This document shows, piece after piece, positions 1,878 to 23,070 of a DNA stretch of 25,081 nt; positions within the stretch are counted from its first letter, which is position 1, and each line of letters opens with the position of its first letter. The position numbers and the translations under genes are program-made. A model generated the notes under the pieces. The model was not told where the DNA came from, ran no database searches, and saw only the letters and a list, made by a program, of their open reading frames with translations. The DNA comes from a virus. The stretch lies in the IMG/VR virus record IMGVR_UViG_3300024518_003967, positions 1 to 25,081 of that record, one strand, 5' to 3'.

Positions 1878-3974
1878 CTATTGAGGCGGCGCTGGCGGCG
1901 TGTCCGCGGGCAGGCCATCCGCCGGCGTGGGCGCGGGACTGCCCTCGTTCTGGCGAATGAGTTGCGCGACCTCAGACTGGATAAGTTGCACCAGGGCCTC
2001 GCGGTCGAGACCGCTGTCTTTCATGAGCTGCATCAGCTTGACTTGCTCTTGCTGGGACTTCGCCTCGGCGGCCTCGACCTTGGCCTCCATCTCGGCGAGG
2101 CGGGCCTCGGCCTCAACGGCGGCAATTTTCTGTTCTTGCGACGGCGGGCGCTGCTCGCCCTCGTCCCCACGCTCGCCCTCGAGGAGCTCGGGCGGCACGG
2201 TCTTGCGGAGCCGTTCGGCCATCATCTTTGCCGCGGGGTGATCGAGGTTGCCGGCCACTAGGTCGCGCACCAGGGGGGCGGCGTCGGGGTCGCGCTCGAG
2301 GTACAACAGGATCGCCTGGACGGCGGCGAGGCGCTGGGTCGCGAACGACGGGCCGACGCGAATATTGATGCCGTAACGCCCGGCGCGCAGATCATTGATG
2401 AACGATTCCTTGCCGGTTTCCTGGTCAGTGATGGGCTCGAACAGCTGCAGGAAATCTTCGCTCTCGTCCTCATGGAGCAAGCGCACCACGCGCTGGCTGT
2501 CATACACCCGGGGGATCATGTCCACCAGGATGCGGCCGGTGTGGCGAATGCCGCGGCTCAAGTTGTCGATGTATGTGAAGGTATTGACGCTGGTTTTCTG
2601 CTGGAGCGCCTGAATCGCGCGGCCTGACTGTGCCTCCTCTGACTCTCCGATGCTCGGGTTGAACTGCCCGACCGTCGCGCGTATGTCGGCGTCCGCGGCC
2701 AGGGTCTCGTTGACCATGCCGGCGGGGATCTGGGGGGGCACCTGGCGCTGCGGCGGGGGGATGTCGGGAATGTGACTGTAGGTCAGCACCGCCTGGTTCT
2801 TGGCATTAGCGTTCTGCCATTCGGTCAGGTTGTCCTCGACTTGCTCCGCGGCGGCGACGAACGGCATTTTGGGGGTGAGCGCCACGAACTCAGTGGTCGC
2901 GGTGCGCCAATAATTATAGGCCCGCTGGGCGTCTTTCGCGTGGCGCACGATGCCGCGCGTCCGGACCTCACCATCGACGGCGAGCTCCTTGCCGGTGACG
3001 GCGATAATCGGAATCCAACGGGCTGGAAACTCCGTCGGGCCCTCGAGGATACGAGTGCCGCCGACACGGTAAAACTCCACCTTGTGAGAGCGCACGTCGC
3101 GGGTACGGACAACTTTCTCTCCGCGCTCCTCGAGCTCGTCCATGATGTCTGCCTGGGCGGTCGTGTCGATCACGGTGCCATCGGACAGCTGCGCGATGGT
3201 GCGTTTCATGGGCACCCGGCGGTAATACTCGGCCACCGCAACGTGGTCGTCCTTGGTGCGGAACCAGGAGCCCCACGGCCTCATGACGTCCGTATCGAGA
3301 TCGCCGGGCGGGAATTTCCCTGGGTAGCGTGCGTCGAACTCGCTTCGCTCCATCCAATCGAGGAGGAACCCCCAATTGCCGTCGCTGCGATCGGCCTTCT
3401 TCGCGTGCGGGTCGAGCACGACCAGGGTCGGGTCCAGGATTCGATCGATGACGATGTTCTGCGTGAACACGTCGTCAGCCACGTATTCCGTGCGCACTAT
3501 CCAGTTCCCGAGCCCACCGGCAAGCACGGTCTCGAGGGCCGTGTCGTAGGCGTCCTGGGCGCTCGATTGCTGCTCGATGTCCCGAATCAGGGCCTCGTAA
3601 GCGTCGGCGCGGCTCATCTCCTTGCCGGCCTTGGTGGTCATCTTCTCGTCGCCGACCTGGGACGTGGCGGCGACGTGAATAGCAATCTTGTTCTGCCGGT
3701 TCTCGCCGGCGGTGGAGTCTACGAATGCTGGCAGTTTATTGATGGTCAGCATCGGGCGCTTGGTCCCGCGGGCGTTCTTCGCTTCCTCGCTCCATTGGTC
3801 CTCGCCATCGAGAAAGGCCACGTCCTCGGTGTACTTCTCGATGCGGTCCCGCTGGCCATCGTGCCCCAATGACAGGCGCTCGCGGGCCTCCTGGGTGATG
3901 GCCTGCTCGCCAGTCGTGGGGGGTTGGTAGTGGGCGCCCGACTCTGAGGTTACGACCTCGGATTTATCTGCCAT
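1878..3974 (-). CDS. P22-type portal protein
   Basis: Forms the dodecameric ring at the head vertex through which DNA enters and to which the neck attaches. The product is 698 residues, close to the P22 gp1 size class. Diagnostic stretches include GENRQNKIAIHV near the N-terminus and VLDPHAKKADRSDGNWGFLL in the stem/wing region, followed by a long C-terminal coiled coil rich in E, A, K and Q (about 615-690) and a proline-rich end. The ATG at 3974 overlaps the terminase stop by one base (TGATG), which argues for translational coupling. A TTG at 3989 would add five residues and cannot be excluded. Neighbours are terL upstream and scaffold downstream, the canonical order. Confidence 0.9.
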   Translation of the reverse strand: MADKSEVVTSESGAHYQPPTTGEQAITQEARERLSLGHDGQRDRIEKYTEDVAFLDGEDQWSEEAKNARGTKRPMLTINKLPAFVDSTAGENRQNKIAIHVAATSQVGDEKMTTKAGKEMSRADAYEALIRDIEQQSSAQDAYDTALETVLAGGLGNWIVRTEYVADDVFTQNIVIDRILDPTLVVLDPHAKKADRSDGNWGFLLDWMERSEFDARYPGKFPPGDLDTDVMRPWGSWFRTKDDHVAVAEYYRRVPMKRTIAQLSDGTVIDTTAQADIMDELEERGEKVVRTRDVRSHKVEFYRVGGTRILEGPTEFPARWIPIIAVTGKELAVDGEVRTRGIVRHAKDAQRAYNYWRTATTEFVALTPKMPFVAAAEQVEDNLTEWQNANAKNQAVLTYSHIPDIPPPQRQVPPQIPAGMVNETLAADADIRATVGQFNPSIGESEEAQSGRAIQALQQKTSVNTFTYIDNLSRGIRHTGRILVDMIPRVYDSQRVVRLLHEDESEDFLQLFEPITDQETGKESFINDLRAGRYGINIRVGPSFATQRLAAVQAILLYLERDPDAAPLVRDLVAGNLDHPAAKMMAERLRKTVPPELLEGERGDEGEQRPPSQEQKIAAVEAEARLAEMEAKVEAAEAKSQQEQVKLMQLMKDSGLDREALVQLIQSEVAQLIRQNEGSPAPTPADGLPADTPPAPPQ

Positions 3975-5326
3975 CAGCTTGCCATCCAATCACCAGCGGC
4001 CCGGGGGGCCGTGCGGGGTTCGGCCTGCAGCCGGCGCCGCAGACGTTTGATGCGTTTCGCGCCTTCGCCGAAAGCGTCGGAGCCATCGCTCGCCCAATCA
4101 TCCTCGGGCTCGTCACTCCAGGCCTTGAGCTTCTCGTAATACTTGGCGTGGAATGTCCACAGACAGTCAAGACCCCGCTCACACGTTGCCTTGTTGAAGC
4201 GACAGAGCGGCAGCGTGACTTTGACCAGATCGCGGGTTTCCGCCTTGCTCTTGATGCGCGGATTGATTTTGAACTTGATGCCGTAGCCCTTTGCTCGAGC
4301 GACTCGCGATTCTCCCGTGCCCCATTCGCCGGCCCCCATGTCGTGTGGTGCGATGTGTTCGCCGTAAATATAGCCCTTCTCCTGGGCCCGCGCCTGAATC
4401 ACCCGCGCGTAATGAGACAGCCCCTCGCCGGCGCCCTGGTAAAAGTCGATGAAGTGCACGATAGGAGAAACCGGGTGCAGCTGGAAAAACCACACGGCCG
4501 TTGTGTGACCGAACCCAATGTCCCAACACGTATGAACGGGGAGCGCCGGGTCGTGGGGGAAGTCCCCAAAGCCGCCGATGCTCTCCAGGTGCGCCATTTC
4601 CTTTGCGTAGTAGGCGCCCTCGGTGGGGGCGGTAAAGCTGCAGTAATATTCCTGCTGAATCATCCCCTCGCTCATGCCCTCGAGGCGCTCCTCCTCGATG
4701 TCGGCGAGGGTCAGGAGTTTGGTGTCTCGAATGTCCAGCTTCTCGGCGAAGTAGCGGGGGTTAGTCTTGGCGAGCTCAGTGAAGGTGTCGAAGGTGGTCT
4801 TACCGTGGTTGCGGCCGAACGGGGTGTAGATGAACAGGGCCCAGCCGCCGTTTTCCCGCAGGATGGGGCGTATGTAGTCCCACGCCGCGGGGTTGGCGCG
4901 CTGCCACTCGGAGAACACCACCCCGACCGGGTTAGCGCCGAGGAGGCTCTCGAAATGGTCGGAGCCCACGCACTGGTAGACCGAGCCGTTGACGAGCTCA
5001 ATCTTCATTTCCGTTTTGTTCGCCTGGCCGGAGCGAATCGCGTGCGGGAAGGCCTGGTCGATGCGGCGCTGGCCTCGAATGTTGATGGAGTCCCAAACGA
5101 CCTTGCGCGCCTGGGTGGCCGCGGGGAGCATGTGCCAGTAGGTACCGGTGCGCTCGAACGACTCGTCGGCAATGAGGTTCATCGCCGTGTCATCCTTGCC
5201 GGCCCGGCGATGCCACACCGCGGCGCCGCGCTTACCCTTGGCGCTGCCGCCAGCCTTCATCCATAGCCAAAGCCGCTGCTGATGACGTCGCGGGTTCCAG
5301 TCGTTGGGGATCTCAACAGAGTCCAT
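3974..5326 (-). CDS. terL: Terminase large subunit
   Basis: ATP-driven DNA packaging motor and nuclease that cuts the concatemer. The 450-residue protein has an N-terminal ATPase with a Walker A-like WHRRAGKDDTA (38-48), a Walker B-like VGVVFSEW (134-141, catalytic E140 with S in place of the usual D) and a motif III-like YTPFGRNH (168-175). The C-terminal RNase H-fold nuclease has WDIGFGHT (D269), APHDMGAGEWGTGE (D329 region) and a final acidic motif DDWASDGSDAFG (409-420). The ATG at 5326 lies just inside a 26-bp palindrome, and no strong Shine-Dalgarno sequence is visible. Its stop overlaps the portal start. All expected motifs are present, so the protein should be functional. Confidence 0.95.
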   Translation of the reverse strand: MDSVEIPNDWNPRRHQQRLWLWMKAGGSAKGKRGAAVWHRRAGKDDTAMNLIADESFERTGTYWHMLPAATQARKVVWDSINIRGQRRIDQAFPHAIRSGQANKTEMKIELVNGSVYQCVGSDHFESLLGANPVGVVFSEWQRANPAAWDYIRPILRENGGWALFIYTPFGRNHGKTTFDTFTELAKTNPRYFAEKLDIRDTKLLTLADIEEERLEGMSEGMIQQEYYCSFTAPTEGAYYAKEMAHLESIGGFGDFPHDPALPVHTCWDIGFGHTTAVWFFQLHPVSPIVHFIDFYQGAGEGLSHYARVIQARAQEKGYIYGEHIAPHDMGAGEWGTGESRVARAKGYGIKFKINPRIKSKAETRDLVKVTLPLCRFNKATCERGLDCLWTFHAKYYEKLKAWSDEPEDDWASDGSDAFGEGAKRIKRLRRRLQAEPRTAPRAAGDWMAS

Positions 5327-5920: not shown

Positions 5921-6214
5921 CTATGGAACCAGCGCCGGCAAGCCGTCTGGATAATCCAGTAAATATGCTTGCATGACGCCCTCCGCGGCAGCCACCGCCA
6001 CCCGTGGATTCGCCACCGGCCAAGTTAGTGTGGCCTGCGGGAATCTCACGGTGACGTAGAAACTGCCGTAAATGTCTGAGTAGACGGAGCGTGTCACGCG
6101 CACGAGATCCTGAATTCCTCGCTTCTGAAATTCGGTCTCTATCGCGCGTTTCACTCGGATCTCCCCGTTGTCGAACGACTCATCGGAGAGGGTTGTTACG
6201 TTAGAAATTCCCAC
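5921..6214 (-). CDS. Small virion or neck-associated protein, unknown
   Basis: A 97-residue product (GTG start at 6214 assumed) that I do not recognise. It begins VGISNVTTLSDES, has an alternating beta-rich middle (DLVRVTRSVYSDIYGSFYVTV RFPQ region) and ends in YLLDYPDGLPALVP. The GTG overlaps the stop of the preceding gene by 14 bases, as expected in this tightly packed operon. The same frame is open upstream to 6352, but that part lies entirely inside the preceding gene and has poor amino-acid character. Its position between a virion protein gene and terS suggests a structural or packaging-linked role, by context only. Confidence 0.6.
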   Translation of the reverse strand: MGISNVTTLSDESFDNGEIRVKRAIETEFQKRGIQDLVRVTRSVYSDIYGSFYVTVRFPQATLTWPVANPRVAVAAAEGVMQAYLLDYPDGLPALVP

Positions 6215-6512
6215 CTGGTCGCACCCGGAGCTCCACGGGGGGCTCAGTTTCGTGGATGCGCCCGGTGGCGTCCACGACTTTGCACCGGATCTTGTAGGTG
6301 ACATCGCCCGACACGGCCGGGGCGGTAATGTCGATGTTGGTGCGCGTACCATTTACCACGGCCGCGGCGGAGAACGTCGGGCCTGTCGGGTCGGAGACCC
6401 ACGCCACCGAGGAGATTGCGGCGCCGCGCAGCGGAGCTCGCCACTCGAGGTAATGCTCGCGTTTCTCGTTGGAGCTCATGTCGCTCCAGACGCGGGGGCG
6501 CGGTGTAGCCAT
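6201..6512 (-). CDS. Small beta-sandwich protein, paralogue of next protein's N-terminus
   Basis: The 103-residue product resembles the first 100 residues of the 507-residue protein encoded just upstream (6524-8047). Both open MA(T/V)PRPRV..DM, share a central SVAW.S.P.G..F motif and TRT..DI, and end with (K/E)(I/L)RCK, then GRIHETEP..E. The likely fold is an Ig- or FNIII-like beta sandwich, as used in virion decoration and fibre proteins; that is an inference from the strand-like pattern. Its ATG is 11 bases after the previous stop. It looks like a duplication of that domain as a stand-alone protein. Confidence 0.75.
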   Translation of the reverse strand: MATPRPRVWSDMSSNEKREHYLEWRAPLRGAAISSVAWVSDPTGPTFSAAAVVNGTRTNIDITAPAVSGDVTYKIRCKVVDATGRIHETEPPVELRVRPGGNF

Positions 6513-6523
6513 CTATTCAGTCC

Positions 6524-8047
6524 TCAGTCCGGGTCAAGAAAGCGCCACCGCTTGCCGCCGAATGCCTGCGACAGATTGGCGGGGCTGTCAAAGTGGCACC
6601 AGGTAAACCCATTGTCGGATAACTGATCCTCGGGGCCGAAGCCCGAGTCCGTGAAATCGTTGCCATTGCCGGACACGTCATTCCCGAAGTGGGTATTGTC
6701 CTCAAAGTCGAGAAAGACTCCCCGGTTTCCATAAGTGCCAGTGTAGGTGATGGGAGCGCCGCCCGACGCGAATTGTGCCGGGGCGAGCGCCTGGCCGTCG
6801 ATGACATAGTAGAGCGCAATGTCGCCATCGAAGAAGTGGTTTGCGCCGTCCTGCCGCGCGCCGATGACGGTGGTGAGCGGCGCCTCTTGGAGCCAATCCA
6901 TTACCTGGCCGAGCGCCGGGTTGGTGCGTGCCTCAATGGCGGTGAGCCGCACACCATCGATGTAGAAAATCACCCGATCATCGGCCACCGCCAGATTCGT
7001 GTCGATGCTGCACATCACATGATAGATGGTGGCAACCGAATACTGCGTCGAGCTCCGTTGCTGGACGGTAATATTACCTTCGCCATCTTCATGAGTGAGA
7101 TCGAGCTTGTCAGCTTTGAAGCGTAGATAGCTGTGATTTGCAGGGTTGAGCCCGCCGTCGAAGTAATGCGACTCGGTGCCGGTGAAGGCATCGACACGGA
7201 GCCAGCAACTTACCGTGATGCGCGTGAGGTCAGTGGGAGCCCCGCCCTCGACGTGGCAGAGGTTGAGCGGTTCACACGTTTCAAGCGGGGGCTCGAGGTG
7301 TTCGGAGTCGCGGATAACGGCCGTAACGGCGGTGCCCGTGTCAATGTCCACCGAATCGCCCAGGCCGGTATCAACGAACGGCAGGCGCGTATATCCGTAG
7401 GGCGTGTCGATGACTCCGCAGGCGCCGCCCACATCGACCGACGCCACGTTGACGAAGGAATCCGCGCCCATCGGCAGGAACCACAACCGCGGGGTGCCGT
7501 CCTCGAGGAGCTCTATCTGGGATGTGCTGATGAAGGTCGCCGTCTTGTCTCCGTGTGCGTAGACAACGGCATCCCAGTTGTCATTAGTGCGACCGAACTC
7601 GACGTAGAAGCACCCATTGACCGCGCTCACCGTTGGGGTGAGCAGCGTCAGAGTCAGAACCAGGATGCTGGGTACCTCGACGGTCACAGCGTCGCCCGGA
7701 ATCACTGCCGGGAATTCGACGGCCCCGGGCAGCCCCAGCGTGTCGTAGACATCGACCTCGAGCGCCGGCTCAGTCTCGTGTATGCGCCCGCTGGAATCGG
7801 TGAACTTGCATCGGAGCTCGTACAGGGTCGGGTGGCCGGCAATGGGGATCTCAATGTCGAGGCTCGTTCGCGTACCGGCCCCCTCGACTGCCAGGCGGGT
7901 AAACAAAGCGCCAGGCGGGGAGCTCGCCCAGGCCACGGACTCCGGGACAATGGTCGCGCCGAGCAGCGCGCCCGACCAGTCGAACTCGTGCCGGCGGATC
8001 ATCGCCGTCGTCATGTCCGCAAGCACGCGAGGGCGTGGGACTGCCAT
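6524..8047 (-). CDS. LamG/lectin-like virion adhesion protein
   Basis: Probable virion surface or receptor-contact protein of 507 residues. Residues 1-102 form a domain shared with the small protein at 6201-6512. Residues about 121-143 (VTVEVPSILV then LTLTLLTPTVSAVNG) are one copy of the repeat that fills the 9078-11045 protein. Residues 275-425 have the concanavalin A/LamG pattern: TVSCWLRVDAF, FDGG, YHVMCSID, VIFYIDGVRLTA, TTVIGARQDG, FFDGDIALYYVIDGQAL. DVSGNGNDFTDSG (457-469) follows, a stretch common in phage lectin-like proteins. LamG domains usually bind carbohydrate, so a role in adsorption is plausible but not shown by the sequence. Confidence 0.8.
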   Translation of the reverse strand: MAVPRPRVLADMTTAMIRRHEFDWSGALLGATIVPESVAWASSPPGALFTRLAVEGAGTRTSLDIEIPIAGHPTLYELRCKFTDSSGRIHETEPALEVDVYDTLGLPGAVEFPAVIPGDAVTVEVPSILVLTLTLLTPTVSAVNGCFYVEFGRTNDNWDAVVYAHGDKTATFISTSQIELLEDGTPRLWFLPMGADSFVNVASVDVGGACGVIDTPYGYTRLPFVDTGLGDSVDIDTGTAVTAVIRDSEHLEPPLETCEPLNLCHVEGGAPTDLTRITVSCWLRVDAFTGTESHYFDGGLNPANHSYLRFKADKLDLTHEDGEGNITVQQRSSTQYSVATIYHVMCSIDTNLAVADDRVIFYIDGVRLTAIEARTNPALGQVMDWLQEAPLTTVIGARQDGANHFFDGDIALYYVIDGQALAPAQFASGGAPITYTGTYGNRGVFLDFEDNTHFGNDVSGNGNDFTDSGFGPEDQLSDNGFTWCHFDSPANLSQAFGGKRWRFLDPD

Positions 8048-8111: not shown

Positions 8112-8540
8112 TTAGATCTGGAAAATACCGCTTGCGTTGAAGTTGACACGGAAATCCGTGCCGTCGCCGGCAGTCTCGTCCTGGCCGAAATCAATGTTGA
8201 GCATGAGCTCGTCATTGGTCGCGGTGTCATCGTAGATGACCATGTGGCGCGCAGGCCCGATGGAGCCCCCGCTGGCCGTCCACACCTGGTCTGCCGCGTC
8301 GAAAGTGACCGTGCCGGTGGCCTCCACCCAAGTTGGGGTTGTCAGGTTTTGACCGAGGGCCGTGTAGCCGTTGCCAGTGCCGAGGGCGTTCGCGGAAATG
8401 GTGCTGCGTTGCGTGTGTGTGGCCGTGAACGTGTGGGTCGAGTTGTAGAGCTCACCCTTGAACGTATCGGCATCCAAGTCCATCGTGTTATCGCCAGCGT
8501 ACTCGATGAGCTTGTTGTAGTTGGAAATCGTGACTGCCAT
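8112..8540 (-). CDS. Phage structural protein, unknown role
   Basis: The 142-residue protein belongs to a type I recognise from many environmental phages. It begins with a short helix and DLDADTFKGELY, then TFTATHTQRSTISAN, GNGYTALGQNL, W.EATGTVTFDAADQVWTAS, AR..VIYDDTATNDELMLNIDFG and a closing DGTDFRVNFNASGIFQI. Such proteins are found among virion genes. The exact location (tail tube, decoration or fibre base) is not known to me. The beta-rich pattern and the G/T/N content fit a compact beta sandwich. The ATG at 8540 has an AGGACAC-type ribosome site upstream. Downstream is the lectin-like gene after a strong hairpin. Confidence 0.75.
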   Translation of the reverse strand: MAVTISNYNKLIEYAGDNTMDLDADTFKGELYNSTHTFTATHTQRSTISANALGTGNGYTALGQNLTTPTWVEATGTVTFDAADQVWTASGGSIGPARHMVIYDDTATNDELMLNIDFGQDETAGDGTDFRVNFNASGIFQI

Positions 8541-8573: not shown

Positions 8574-8783
8574 TTATTCCTCGGGGCCGACGTTGATGGT
8601 TACACCGTTCCCACCGACTGAGGGTGTTTCTTCGCGGCGATTCTTGGCGCCCTCGAGGCGCTTCAGAGATTGGTCATATTGCTCGAGCCGGTTCTCGGCG
8701 CCGGGCTTGGCGGTGCCGAACACCATCTTGGCTACCAGCTTCTCCCGTGCGGCTTTGACCGCCTCATATCGGGGTGTGCTCAT
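8574..8783 (-). CDS. Small charged hypothetical protein
   Basis: A 69-residue product starting at MSTPRYEAVKAAREKLV. It is helical and charged in the middle (AENRLEQYDQSLKRLEGAKN) with a short beta end (GVTINVGPEE). The ATG at 8783 overlaps the stop of the preceding gene as ATGA, which fixes the start; the longer open frame upstream lies inside that gene. No family is recognised. It could be an assembly chaperone or a small structural protein, given the flanking virion genes. Confidence 0.65.
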   Translation of the reverse strand: MSTPRYEAVKAAREKLVAKMVFGTAKPGAENRLEQYDQSLKRLEGAKNRREETPSVGGNGVTINVGPEE

Positions 8784-9073
8784 AGTTCGCGGTCCTCTCG
8801 TTTGACGTTCTGTGCTTCGCCGTCCGTGTCGAGGATGCCCTCGGGCGTCACCCCGATGACTCGCTGACACTTGACGTTCAGACAGACTATAGACCCGCAA
8901 CGGGCCCATTTCTTGTCAAGAGCCGGGTCAGGAACCATGAACACACGGAAGCGCATCGAGCCACAGCTGCAGCGGAGCGCAAACTCGTCGCGGCCTGGAT
9001 ACACACGTTTCCCCGGAATATGCAGCGTTTGACGGCCGGCAATGTGGATGGCGGGGGATTTCTGTTCGCTCAT
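8780..9073 (-). CDS. Small zinc-ribbon-like protein
   Basis: The 97-residue protein has a beta-rich cysteine module: LRCSCGSMRFRVF (C35, C37) and, about 20 residues later, WARCGSIVCLNVKCQRVIGV (C59, C64, C69). This suggests a bound zinc. The remainder has SPAIHIAGRQTLHI, a beta-hairpin-like N-terminus. It sits 4 bases after the long repeat-protein gene and overlaps the next gene by ATGA, so it is translated with the virion set. Function unknown; metal binding is inferred from cysteine spacing only. Confidence 0.65.
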   Translation of the reverse strand: MSEQKSPAIHIAGRQTLHIPGKRVYPGRDEFALRCSCGSMRFRVFMVPDPALDKKWARCGSIVCLNVKCQRVIGVTPEGILDTDGEAQNVKREDREL

Positions 9074-9077
9074 CGGT

Positions 9078-11045
9078 TCATCCTGCTTTGGCGATGGTCA
9101 TGATGGAGCCCCGGGCCGGAATCAGCATCGAGGCGCCCGTCACGCCATCGAGCATGGTGGAGCCCACGGGAGCGGATAGTAGCGCAATGCCTTCCCCGAG
9201 TGATGTCGGGGCGCTGATCCCCACCTTGACCACCGGCGGGAACAACAGAAGCGTGAAGGTCTTGACGAGGGGGCGCACCACGACGCCACCACCCACATCG
9301 GGGGTGAGCAGCGTCAGGGTGAAGGTCTTGAGGGGCGCTCGGATGCCGATGCCGGTGAGTACCTGGCTCGGCGTGTGGAGCGTAAGCGTGAACGTCTTGA
9401 GCGGAGCCTCGACAACAGCGCCCGAGGCCGGGACCGGCGCGAACAGCTGCAGCGTGAACACCTTGACCGGGACGGCCACCGGCAGGCCGCCGATGTCGGT
9501 CGGCGCGAACAGCTGCAACGTGAACGTCTTGAGGGGCGCGGCCACCGTGACGCCGGTCTCGACCGCCGGCAACGGCAGGACCAGGGTGAAGGCTTTGAGC
9601 GGAGCATCGACCGTGACGCCGGTCATGAGCGCCGGCGTGAACAACGTCAGCGTGAAGATGAGGTAAGGCGTTTCGACAATGACCTCGGTAGCGCCGGCCG
9701 AGACCGTGGGCGTCAACAGACTCAGCGTAAACGTCTTGAGGGGCGCATCGACCGTGACGCCGCTCGCGGCGACGGGCGTGAGCAACGTCAGGGTCAGAGT
9801 CTTGAGCGGCGCATCGACCGTCACTCCGGAATGCACCGTGGGGGTGAACAGGGTGAGTGTGAATGTCTTGAGTGGAGCGACCGCCTGGGCGCCCGTTGCG
9901 GCAACCGGCGTGAGGAGCGTCAGAGTGAACGTCTTGAGCGGGGCGACCGATCGCACGCCCGTTGCGGCCACCGGCACCAGGAGTGTGAGCGTGAACGTCT
10001 TGAGTGGCGCGTCAACCGCGACACCGCCCGCCAGTGACGGGGTGAACAGAGTCAACGTGAACGTCTTGAGGGGAGTCTCAACGGTGACACCGCTCGCGGC
10101 AACCGGCGTCAAGAGAGTCAAGGTGAACGTCTTGAGGGGCGCGTCAACGGTGACGCCGGTATGGATTGCCGGCGTGAGGAGCGTCAGCGTAAACGTCTTG
10201 AGGGGGGCCGTGAGCTGGACGCCGGTGGCGATGGAGCTCGGCGTCAGTAACGTCAAGGTGAAGGTCTTGAGGGGGGCGTCAATCGCAACGCCGCCCGCCA
10301 ATGACGGGGTAAATAGTGTCAGAGTGAAAGTCTTGAGGGGTGCCTCGAGCTGTACGCCCGTTGCGGCCACCGGCGTAAGGAGCGTCAGAGTAAACGTCTT
10401 GAGGGGGGCCTCGAGCTGGACCCCGGTCGCGGCGACTGGCGTGAGTAGAGTAAGCGTGAAGGTCTTGAGCGGTGCATCGACGGTGACGCCAGAGTGCACG
10501 GCGGGCGTGAACAGAGTCAGGGTAAAAGTTTTGAGCGGCGCTGCGGCCGATGCCCCGGTCTCGGCCGAGGGCGTGCCGAGGCTCAAAGTGAAGGTCTTGA
10601 GCGGGGCCTCGAGCTGTACGCCGGTCGCGATGGAGCTCGGCGTCAGGAGCGTGAGTGTGAAGGTCTTGAGCGGGGCCTCGAGCTGTACGCCGGTCGCTGC
10701 AACTGGTGTAAACAGGGTGAGCGTGAAGGTCTTGAGTGGAGCATCGACCGTGACGCCGGAATGCACCGTGGGAGTGAACAGTGTGAGTGTGAACGTCTTG
10801 AGCGGCGCGTTGACCGTGACACCGGAGTGCACGGCCGGCGTGAACAGAGTAAGCGTGAAGGTCTTGAGCGGAGCATCGACGGTGACGCCGGTATGCGTCG
10901 CCGGGGTGAACAGGGTGAGCGTGAAAGTCTTGAGTGGAGCGTTGACCGTGACGGGCGCCCCAACGTCCGCAAACAGAAGCGCGACGGTGACGCCTCGTAT
11001 CTCATATTCCGAATACGAGGGAGGCCGATAGACGTGCTCGGACAT
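9078..11045 (-). CDS. Virion protein of 26 tandem 22-residue beta repeats
   Basis: The 655 residues divide exactly into a 35-residue head, 26 repeats and a 42-residue tail. The repeat consensus is APLKTFTLTLFTPxxxTGVTVD. Most copies are 22 residues; copies 5, 11 and 24 have 23 and copy 19 has 25. Copies 20-26 are more divergent, and copies 1-18 are nearly uniform. Alternating hydrophobic and polar residues (TFTLTLFT, GVTVD) predict two short strands per repeat, as in a beta-solenoid or a chain of small strands in a fibre. The ATG at 11045 overlaps the preceding stop (TAATG). The context of virion genes suggests a tail or head fibre. One matching copy lies in the lectin-like protein at 6524-8047. 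The function is inferred. Confidence 0.8.
   Translation of the reverse strand: MSEHVYRPPSYSEYEIRGVTVALLFADVGAPVTVNAPLKTFTLTLFTPATHTGVTVDAPLKTFTLTLFTPAVHSGVTVNAPLKTFTLTLFTPTVHSGVTVDAPLKTFTLTLFTPVAATGVQLEAPLKTFTLTLLTPSSIATGVQLEAPLKTFTLSLGTPSAETGASAAAPLKTFTLTLFTPAVHSGVTVDAPLKTFTLTLLTPVAATGVQLEAPLKTFTLTLLTPVAATGVQLEAPLKTFTLTLFTPSLAGGVAIDAPLKTFTLTLLTPSSIATGVQLTAPLKTFTLTLLTPAIHTGVTVDAPLKTFTLTLLTPVAASGVTVETPLKTFTLTLFTPSLAGGVAVDAPLKTFTLTLLVPVAATGVRSVAPLKTFTLTLLTPVAATGAQAVAPLKTFTLTLFTPTVHSGVTVDAPLKTLTLTLLTPVAASGVTVDAPLKTFTLSLLTPTVSAGATEVIVETPYLIFTLTLFTPALMTGVTVDAPLKAFTLVLPLPAVETGVTVAAPLKTFTLQLFAPTDIGGLPVAVPVKVFTLQLFAPVPASGAVVEAPLKTFTLTLHTPSQVLTGIGIRAPLKTFTLTLLTPDVGGGVVVRPLVKTFTLLLFPPVVKVGISAPTSLGEGIALLSAPVGSTMLDGVTGASMLIPARGSIMTIAKAG
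9150..10941 (-). repeat. Tandem 66-bp coding repeats (26 copies)
   Basis: Imperfect direct repeats of about 66 bp encode the 22-residue units of the 655-residue protein. On the plus strand they show as recurrent blocks around GTGAACGTCTTGAG and near variants. Copies differ at many third codon positions while the amino acids stay fixed, so selection has held the protein rather than the DNA. They are not CRISPR-like: there are no unique spacers. Confidence 0.85.
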
Positions 11046-11509
11046 TAGCCGAGTTCTTCAAATACCAATAAGGCGATCAGCGTGACCGAGGTAATGGTGA
11101 TCGCACTTTTAAGAGCCACGATCACGCCCGGATCGATGACGATACGCTCCTTCGGTGTGGGGAGCCATACGTGTCCGTTGAGCACGTTGAACCCACGATT
11201 GTAGAGAATGTCACCGTCGGTGCCTTCGGCCGTCGCCGTATGCCCGGTTGCTGTCGTCCCACCTACGGCCTTCGCTGTCGGCCCAAGACCCCGGTTATAG
11301 GGGACCGGCGTAAAAGATGTCACGGTCGCCGCCGCTGTTTTCTCCAGAATTTGTATCTCCCCGGTATCCGATACTTCGCTTGTGCTGTTGGAAACTTCGG
11401 CACGAATCAACTCGAGGGGTGTCGATGCGCCAGCTTTGATTTGCAGAAGTGTTTTAGCGGCCGTGACGGTCGCGATGTTTGCTCGTACCACGTACACAAG
11501 TCCTGACAT
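11045..11509 (-). CDS. Probable virion decoration/structural protein
   Basis: A 154-residue beta-rich protein, MSGLVYVVRANIATVTAAKT at its start. Features are LLQIKAGASTPLELIRAEVS, GEIQILEKTAAATVTSFTP, GHVWLPTPKERIVIDPG and a hydrophobic end TSVTLIALLVFEELG. The pattern of evenly spaced beta strands resembles single-domain jelly-roll or sandwich proteins that decorate capsids or form fibres, and I have seen similar unassigned proteins in environmental phages. AGGATG precedes the ATG at 11509, only 3 bases after the previous stop. Its stop is coupled to the repeat-protein start. The role is inferred from context. Confidence 0.6.
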   Translation of the reverse strand: MSGLVYVVRANIATVTAAKTLLQIKAGASTPLELIRAEVSNSTSEVSDTGEIQILEKTAAATVTSFTPVPYNRGLGPTAKAVGGTTATGHTATAEGTDGDILYNRGFNVLNGHVWLPTPKERIVIDPGVIVALKSAITITSVTLIALLVFEELG

Positions 11510-17374: not shown

Positions 17375-17812
17375 ATGGAACTCACCACTAAAGCCTTGGA
17401 GCGGCTGTTCGAGAAGCACCCGCTCTATTCCGGCGAGGAGAAATACGACGACCAGGGCAACCGCCCGATCCTCGCCAAGTATTTTACCCCCGACAGCAAT
17501 TGGACCTGGTACGTGCTCGAGGCCGAGCGCCAGGGCGATGACTGGTACTTCTACGGGTACGTGGAGGGGTTCGAGAGCGAGTACGGCCCCTTCCTCCTGA
17601 GTGACCTTCAGAGCGCCCGCGGCCCCCTCGGATTGGCCATCGAGCGCGACCTGTACTTCAGGAACAAGCGCCTTCGGGACGTGGACAAGCGGCTGGAATC
17701 GGCCAGCATTGCCACCCCGAGCCAGAAAGCGGCGCCGGCGATGCTCATACGGCGGCGTAGGCGCCGCAGTAGGCGCCGGCGCTTGGCGCCGCTCGGGCTG
17801 AGAACGCGGTAA
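17375..17812 (+). CDS. DUF2958 protein with a foreign Arg-rich C-terminus
   Basis: Residues 1-100 match DUF2958: HPLYSGEEKYDD, KYFTPDSNWTWYVLEAE, DWYFYGYVEGFESEYGPF, LSDLQSARGPLGLAIERDL. DUF2958 proteins are common on phages and plasmids and have no established function. From residue 112 to the stop at 145 the protein is encoded by the left copy of the 117-bp inverted repeat, on the strand opposite to the membrane-protein gene that the right copy encodes. This gives an unnatural Arg-rich tail. The original C-terminus has therefore probably been replaced. The start at 17375 lies 1 base after the previous stop; GGAGG precedes it. Confidence 0.85.
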   Translation: MELTTKALERLFEKHPLYSGEEKYDDQGNRPILAKYFTPDSNWTWYVLEAERQGDDWYFYGYVEGFESEYGPFLLSDLQSARGPLGLAIERDLYFRNKRLRDVDKRLESASIATPSQKAAPAMLIRRRRRRSRRRRLAPLGLRTR

Positions 17813-17824
17813 GAAGGGGCATCT
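17708..17824 (+). repeat. Left copy of 117-bp perfect inverted repeat
   Basis: Base-for-base reverse complement of 22923-23039 over 117 bp, with mismatches on both sides (17707 and 17825). It covers the end of the DUF2958 gene and stops just before the ribosome site of the next gene. It contains three GGCGCC palindromes that could nucleate folding. Confidence 0.95.
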
Positions 17825-17835
17825 GCGGAGGCTGC

Positions 17836-22918: not shown

Positions 22919-23070
22919 CCGAAGATGCCCCTTCTTACCGCGTTCTCAGCCCGAGCGGCGCCAAGCGCCGGCGCCTACTGCGGCGCCTACGCCGCCGTAT
23001 GAGCATCGCCGGCGCCGCTTTCTGGCTCGGGGTGGCAATCATCGTGGTCATCGTCGTGGTGAGCTCCTAG
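22915..23070 (+). CDS. Small single-pass membrane protein
   Basis: A 51-residue product with a basic front (AKRRRLLRRLRRRM, residues 16-29) followed by a transmembrane helix (SIAGAAFWLGVAIIVVIVVV, 30-49). Positive residues before the helix suggest an N-in orientation. ATGA overlap with the previous gene and AGGAG upstream mark this as a real gene. Codons 4 to 42 form the right copy of the inverted repeat, so this gene is likely the source of the duplicated sequence. Function unknown. Confidence 0.7.
   Translation: MTEDAPSYRVLSPSGAKRRRLLRRLRRRMSIAGAAFWLGVAIIVVIVVVSS
22923..23039 (-). repeat. Right copy of 117-bp perfect inverted repeat
   Basis: Reverse complement of 17708-17824 without a mismatch. 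It lies inside the small membrane-protein gene and reads as a natural protein there, so this copy looks original. Recombination between the two copies would invert about 5.1 kb between them. Confidence 0.95.

Follow-up and report, generated by a model that had tools for sequence, protein, structure and literature searches.

The window analysed here, a 25,081-base partial virus record, carries on its minus strand a late structural cluster that includes the gene of an unusual repeat protein. The cluster holds a P22-type portal (1878..3989; PF16510, E 2.5e-155), a large terminase (3974..5326), a stand-alone Gp77-like fibre-tail adaptor (6201..6512; PF23148, E 1e-5, 26.4 bits against a cut-off of 27) and a fibre gene (6524..8047) that combines a weak Gp77-type N-terminal domain (E 0.006, below the cut-off), one repeat unit and a LamG/ConA-like domain (Laminin_G_3, E 2.7e-8). 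A phrog_644 protein (8112..8540), found in the same module in the relatives L002 and L022, and a small cysteine-containing protein (8780..9073), with look-alikes in both of these modules, lie downstream of the repeat gene (9078..11045). The start of the latter overlaps the neighboring upstream gene (11045..11509) as TAATG, a translational coupling; in relatives, the repeat gene and the fibre gene overlap stop to start (TGATG in L022, TAGTG in L013) or are directly adjacent (L002). Structural proteins that are made together are usually arranged in this way, though it is no proof of virion location. The original prediction had called the product a virion-type protein, and the genomic context agrees with this, both through synteny with terminase, portal and Gp77-type genes and through the coupling to the fibre gene in relatives. 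The Gp77-like adaptor and the weak-Gp77 fibre near the repeat gene resemble the gp77 adaptor (PF23148) and fibres of podophage GP4; the repeat protein itself lacks a Gp77 domain and matches no known phage protein. A 41,635-base contig, 99.95% identical to the window over the shared stretches compared, represents a longer copy of the same phage. Elsewhere in the window, a 121-nt inverted repeat with one mismatch (17708-17828 and 22919-23039, arms 5.09 kb apart) could mark the boundary of a mobile or invertible segment.

The repeat gene starts with ATG and encodes 655 amino acids, which divide into a 35-residue N-terminal head (10941..11045), 26 tandem units spanning residues 36-613 (578 residues; 9207..10940) and a 42-residue C-terminal tail containing the motif GSTMLDG (9081..9206), all on the minus strand. 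The arithmetic proposed from the sequence at first reading, 35 + 578 + 42 = 655 with 26 units, was thus exact. The units follow the consensus APLKTFTLTLFTPxxxTGVTVD and are mostly 22 residues long (22 units), with three of 23 and one of 25 residues. At the DNA level, a two-unit pattern matched 14-16 times within the repeat gene and never in 100 dinucleotide shuffles.

Comparison between units revealed two regimes of constraint. Within the core (unit residues 0-12), synonymous differences far outnumbered nonsynonymous ones (pS 0.59, pN 0.12, pN/pS 0.20), whereas the loop and second strand (unit residues 13-21) reached a pN/pS of 0.90. The early claim that copies differ mostly at silent positions hence applies to the core, but not to the remainder of the unit. 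Pro1, Thr6, Leu7, Leu9 and Pro12 were invariant among 25 aligned units, even though most of their synonymous codons are used, and about 58% of synonymous sites differed between units, which is near saturation. DNA identity between copies averaged 0.63 (range 0.45-0.89) and was flat with respect to the separation of copies, at 0.60-0.65 for every separation, so that the array is not a recent slippage expansion, and leaves the refuting scenario of recent neutral expansion without support. From the saturated synonymous sites and the constrained core it follows that the array is an old expansion, in which the main strand is kept by selection at the protein level while the loops are free to vary. 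Selection on the protein, as anticipated in the original prediction, was also evident between the L022 and L030 orthologues (dN/dS 0.22).

The array could in principle reflect neutral tandem expansion, or the real gene could lie on the opposite strand, where a 450-aa frame is open against the array (9679-11031, +). We regard this as very improbable and reject it on codon usage and core pN/pS: the sense core shows a ratio of 0.20 with most synonymous codons in use, the sense tail and last units are conserved between contigs, and the sense gene belongs to the late operon. Because the opposite frame uses the same wobble positions as the sense frame, composition accounts for its being open, and the frame is most plausibly an incidental result of composition and period. 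A separate codon-level feature was seen at unit position 2, where CTC serves as the leucine codon in 23 of 23 units, compared to 14 of 50 at positions 7 and 9 (p 1.5e-9); CTCAAGAC occurs 21 times in the repeat gene. This represents a site-specific synonymous conservation, although adjacent synonymous sites are saturated.

Sequence and pattern scans of viral contigs recovered the repeat protein in seven of them: 3300024520_000169 (the window phage), 3300043172_000505, 3300043171_000343, 3300027881_000850, 3300037246_001100, 3300043173_000426 and 3300037245_002605 (homologues L001, L002, L022, L030/L067, L013, L016 and L072). A single-unit profile, which recovers 25 of the 26 window units, counted about 34 units in L002 (1361 aa) and about 40 in L022 (1130 aa). 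Copy number, which had been expected to vary and to set fibre length, therefore does differ between relatives (26, ~34, ~40); L022 and L030, from strains 97% identical in DNA, carry equal numbers, so rapid length variation was not seen and the proposed role in setting length gained no support. The last ~10 units and the tail can be matched position for position between phages, while most N-terminal units of the window protein are closer to one another than to the units of other phages. The 42-residue tail is retained in homologues that reach their C-terminus, and its GSTMLDG-containing sequence is confined to homologues of the repeat protein. The head, in contrast, is not conserved: relatives have other N-termini in place of the short head of the window protein, with an extra non-repeat domain among the units of L022 and a minor-tail-protein-like region in L002 (phrog_553, E 1.1e-5; phrog_2106, E 3.6e-5). 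Similarity to known tail proteins is limited to this N-terminal extension of L002. Between L022 (3343-6735) and its counterpart L067 on the L030 contig, dS was 0.015 in the middle of the array and 0.15-0.22 at both ends, as if the middle had recently been exchanged by recombination.

Outside this group, searches returned no credible relatives, within the limits set by the low-complexity filter of BLAST and by patterns that fix the spacing at 22 residues. A tblastn search of 50,697 phage records, for which the window protein, L002 and the C-termini of L022 and L013 served as queries, yielded no match or chance matches (E 9), and pattern scans of 84,980 prokaryote genomes gave nothing or unrelated low-complexity frames, as judged by eye from a sample of matches. 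A profile search of 398 genomes produced two matches, a low-complexity opposite frame and a CRISPR-like tandem-repeat array, neither of which is real. The environmental phage proteins with VP..TL.L.TFAP.V-type repeats mentioned at first reading were not found outside this one phage clade with the patterns and profiles used. The first pattern also picked up, in many viral contigs (L012, L014, L015, L017, L020, L021, L023, L025, L026, L028 and L029), an unrelated ~162-aa frame with Val-Pro-Ala-Thr-Pro-Val-Thr repeats, possibly an opposite-strand frame. Among known families, SWM_repeat (PF13753) scored 50.6 bits on the window protein, but the best stretch covered only 22 of 86 model residues and neither L002 nor L022 matched the model; we therefore read the match as compositional and do not assign the protein to this family. 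A weak match to phrog_9063 turned up as well.

AlphaFold2 modeled eight consecutive units (monomer, template-free, 12 aligned segments as input) as a regular ladder in which each unit contributes one long strand and a short second one (pLDDT 75.9, pTM 0.69), in line with the beta-rich repeats predicted originally, albeit at moderate confidence. The full-length prediction showed the same ladder (pLDDT 62.9), but did not resolve head and tail. Two of five models were poor (mean pLDDT 38-39). With Foldseek, no PDB entry matched significantly (best E 0.66 and 0.23); one match came from a viral model whose function is unnamed (A0A159B6J2, TM 0.62, E 3.8e-4), and no sequence or profile match to solved structures was obtained. 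Owing to the moderate model confidence and the lack of a significant PDB match, we consider a beta ladder plausible and claim nothing stronger.

The unit is present in further tail genes, which the first reading had missed. In the window, the fibre gene contains a single copy, VTVEVPSILVLTLTLLTPTVSA (7622..7687, minus strand), whose score was reached by none of 2,000 shuffles. Located between the Gp77-type and LamG domains, fibre units number one in the window phage, one in L022 and four in L013; their scores were never reached by shuffles, and the two-unit profile applied to L013 had been built without L013 sequences. The unit in the L002 fibre was not significant alone in the shuffle test.

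Complementarily, the two-unit profile, run against 11,772 ORFs, matched a protein encoded several kilobases away (E 7.6e-6). This protein is an Hc3/gp10-like nozzle, matching phrog_578 over its full length (E 2e-104 and 1.7e-101), and its homologues bear the annotation "packaged DNA stabilization protein gp10". An eight-unit profile run on whole records again matched Hc3, in four contigs (E 2e-8 to 1e-7), and listed no units beyond these tail genes in the 41.6- and 43.4-kb contigs. The Hc3 proteins of L066-L069 carry an in-frame two-unit insertion. In the alignment, a clean insertion of ~55-65 residues was restricted to this clade and occurred in none of six outgroup phages, which include Rhodoferax phage P26218, Xanthomonas phage PBR31 and Vibrio phage 1.211.A. 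The insertion is recognizable as two units in the four contigs. In the window phage, for which Hc3 was taken from the longer contig, an insertion occupies the same site, but is so diverged and weakly unit-like (19 of 2,000 shuffles scored as high) that it is only presumed to consist of repeat units. In phage P22, gp10 and gp4 form the body of the short tail, and tailspikes bind its sides (PMC3741392). The nozzle proteins of this clade resemble the P22 gp10/head-closure Hc3 nozzle (phrog_578, PF11134) in their profile match (E ~1e-101 to 1e-104), and differ from it by the 55-65-residue insertion that the six outgroup homologues lack. A more distant Hc3 homologue (L075:17800-20277, +) bears an unrelated Thr/Ser-rich insertion near the same site; the nozzle loop may therefore be a general insertion site.

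On balance, we consider it somewhat probable that the repeat protein serves an uncultured podophage as a tail-associated structural protein and forms a beta rod of ~26 rungs. Each 22-residue unit would make one rung, consisting of a long strand (residues 4-11) whose two faces bear Phe/Leu and Thr, respectively, a proline-bounded turn, a variable loop and a short strand (GVTV). Stacking of ~26 rungs would give an elongated solenoid or ladder that separates the conserved C-terminal tail from the lineage-specific N-terminus. The fibre has acquired the same rung between its adaptor and lectin domains, and the nozzle has acquired it within a loop. A location in the virion is suggested by tail synteny, coupling to the fibre gene, the minor-tail-protein domain of L002 and the occurrence of the unit in the nozzle. 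The protein would probably also be rod-like in its native assembly, and its predicted role is to present receptor-binding or lectin-like parts as a shaft or spacer.

The ladder could alternatively belong to a trimeric fibre shaft of the triple-beta-spiral type, with three chains wound around each other and a strand-turn-strand motif per unit that has Pro/Gly at the turns. Trimeric shafts are common in phage fibres, and the triple beta-spiral is the fold of the adenovirus fibre and PRD1 P5 shafts, whose short repeats combine an alternating hydrophobic strand with Pro/Gly turns. The window unit shares these features, having an alternating hydrophobic strand and Pro and Gly at fixed turn positions, and AlphaFold2 runs on a monomer cannot reveal a trimeric fold and gave moderate confidence. 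Against this, neither Pfam profiles nor PDB sequences linked the window protein to such shafts, and the regular ladder already forms in the monomer model (pTM 0.69), so that we rate a triple beta-spiral as a less likely, yet credible, fold. A functional-amyloid solenoid resembling CsgA/FapC and acting as a sticky adhesive on the surface appears decidedly improbable. CsgA and FapC are built from imperfect ~22-residue repeats with two strands per unit (PMC11005368), a period and strand number that the window array shares, and both were among the weak fold matches. These matches were, however, non-significant (E above 1, TM ~0.1), the sequence pattern and genome context differ, no sequence similarity was found, and no curli-type accessory genes were seen within the window.

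A different question is whether the units hold tail parts together. The rungs of the long protein might stack on those of the nozzle (Hc3) and the fibre, thereby anchoring the repeat protein on the tail. An identical unit type in three tail proteins of one clade and the missing insertion in six outgroup Hc3 proteins would fit such docking, but the units in Hc3 and the fibre may be independent spacers, and those in the Hc3 of the window phage are strongly diverged; we deem docking unlikely, and any stacking between the three proteins speculative. A broader version, in which the unit spread in frame through nozzle, adaptor-fibre and long repeat protein and serves as a common interlocking rung for tail assembly, is likewise doubtful, if slightly less so. 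If true, the unit would be less a conventional domain than an assembly module that can be reused within a genome.

Returning to the favored reading of a tail-associated beta rod, the 22-residue unit is best read as a lineage-specific module common to three tail proteins; this points to a building block that short phage tails can reuse. Repetitive beta shafts are known in phage fibres; overall, the units form a new repeat family within this known class of fibre and shaft repeats, and what is unusual is the use of one short unit in three tail proteins. With its diverse codons, the array also constitutes a natural series of beta repeats useful for protein design. For the phages themselves, one unit type in nozzle, fibre and long array would reveal how shaft material is acquired and shared by tails, and provides a testable idea of how appendages stay on short tails.
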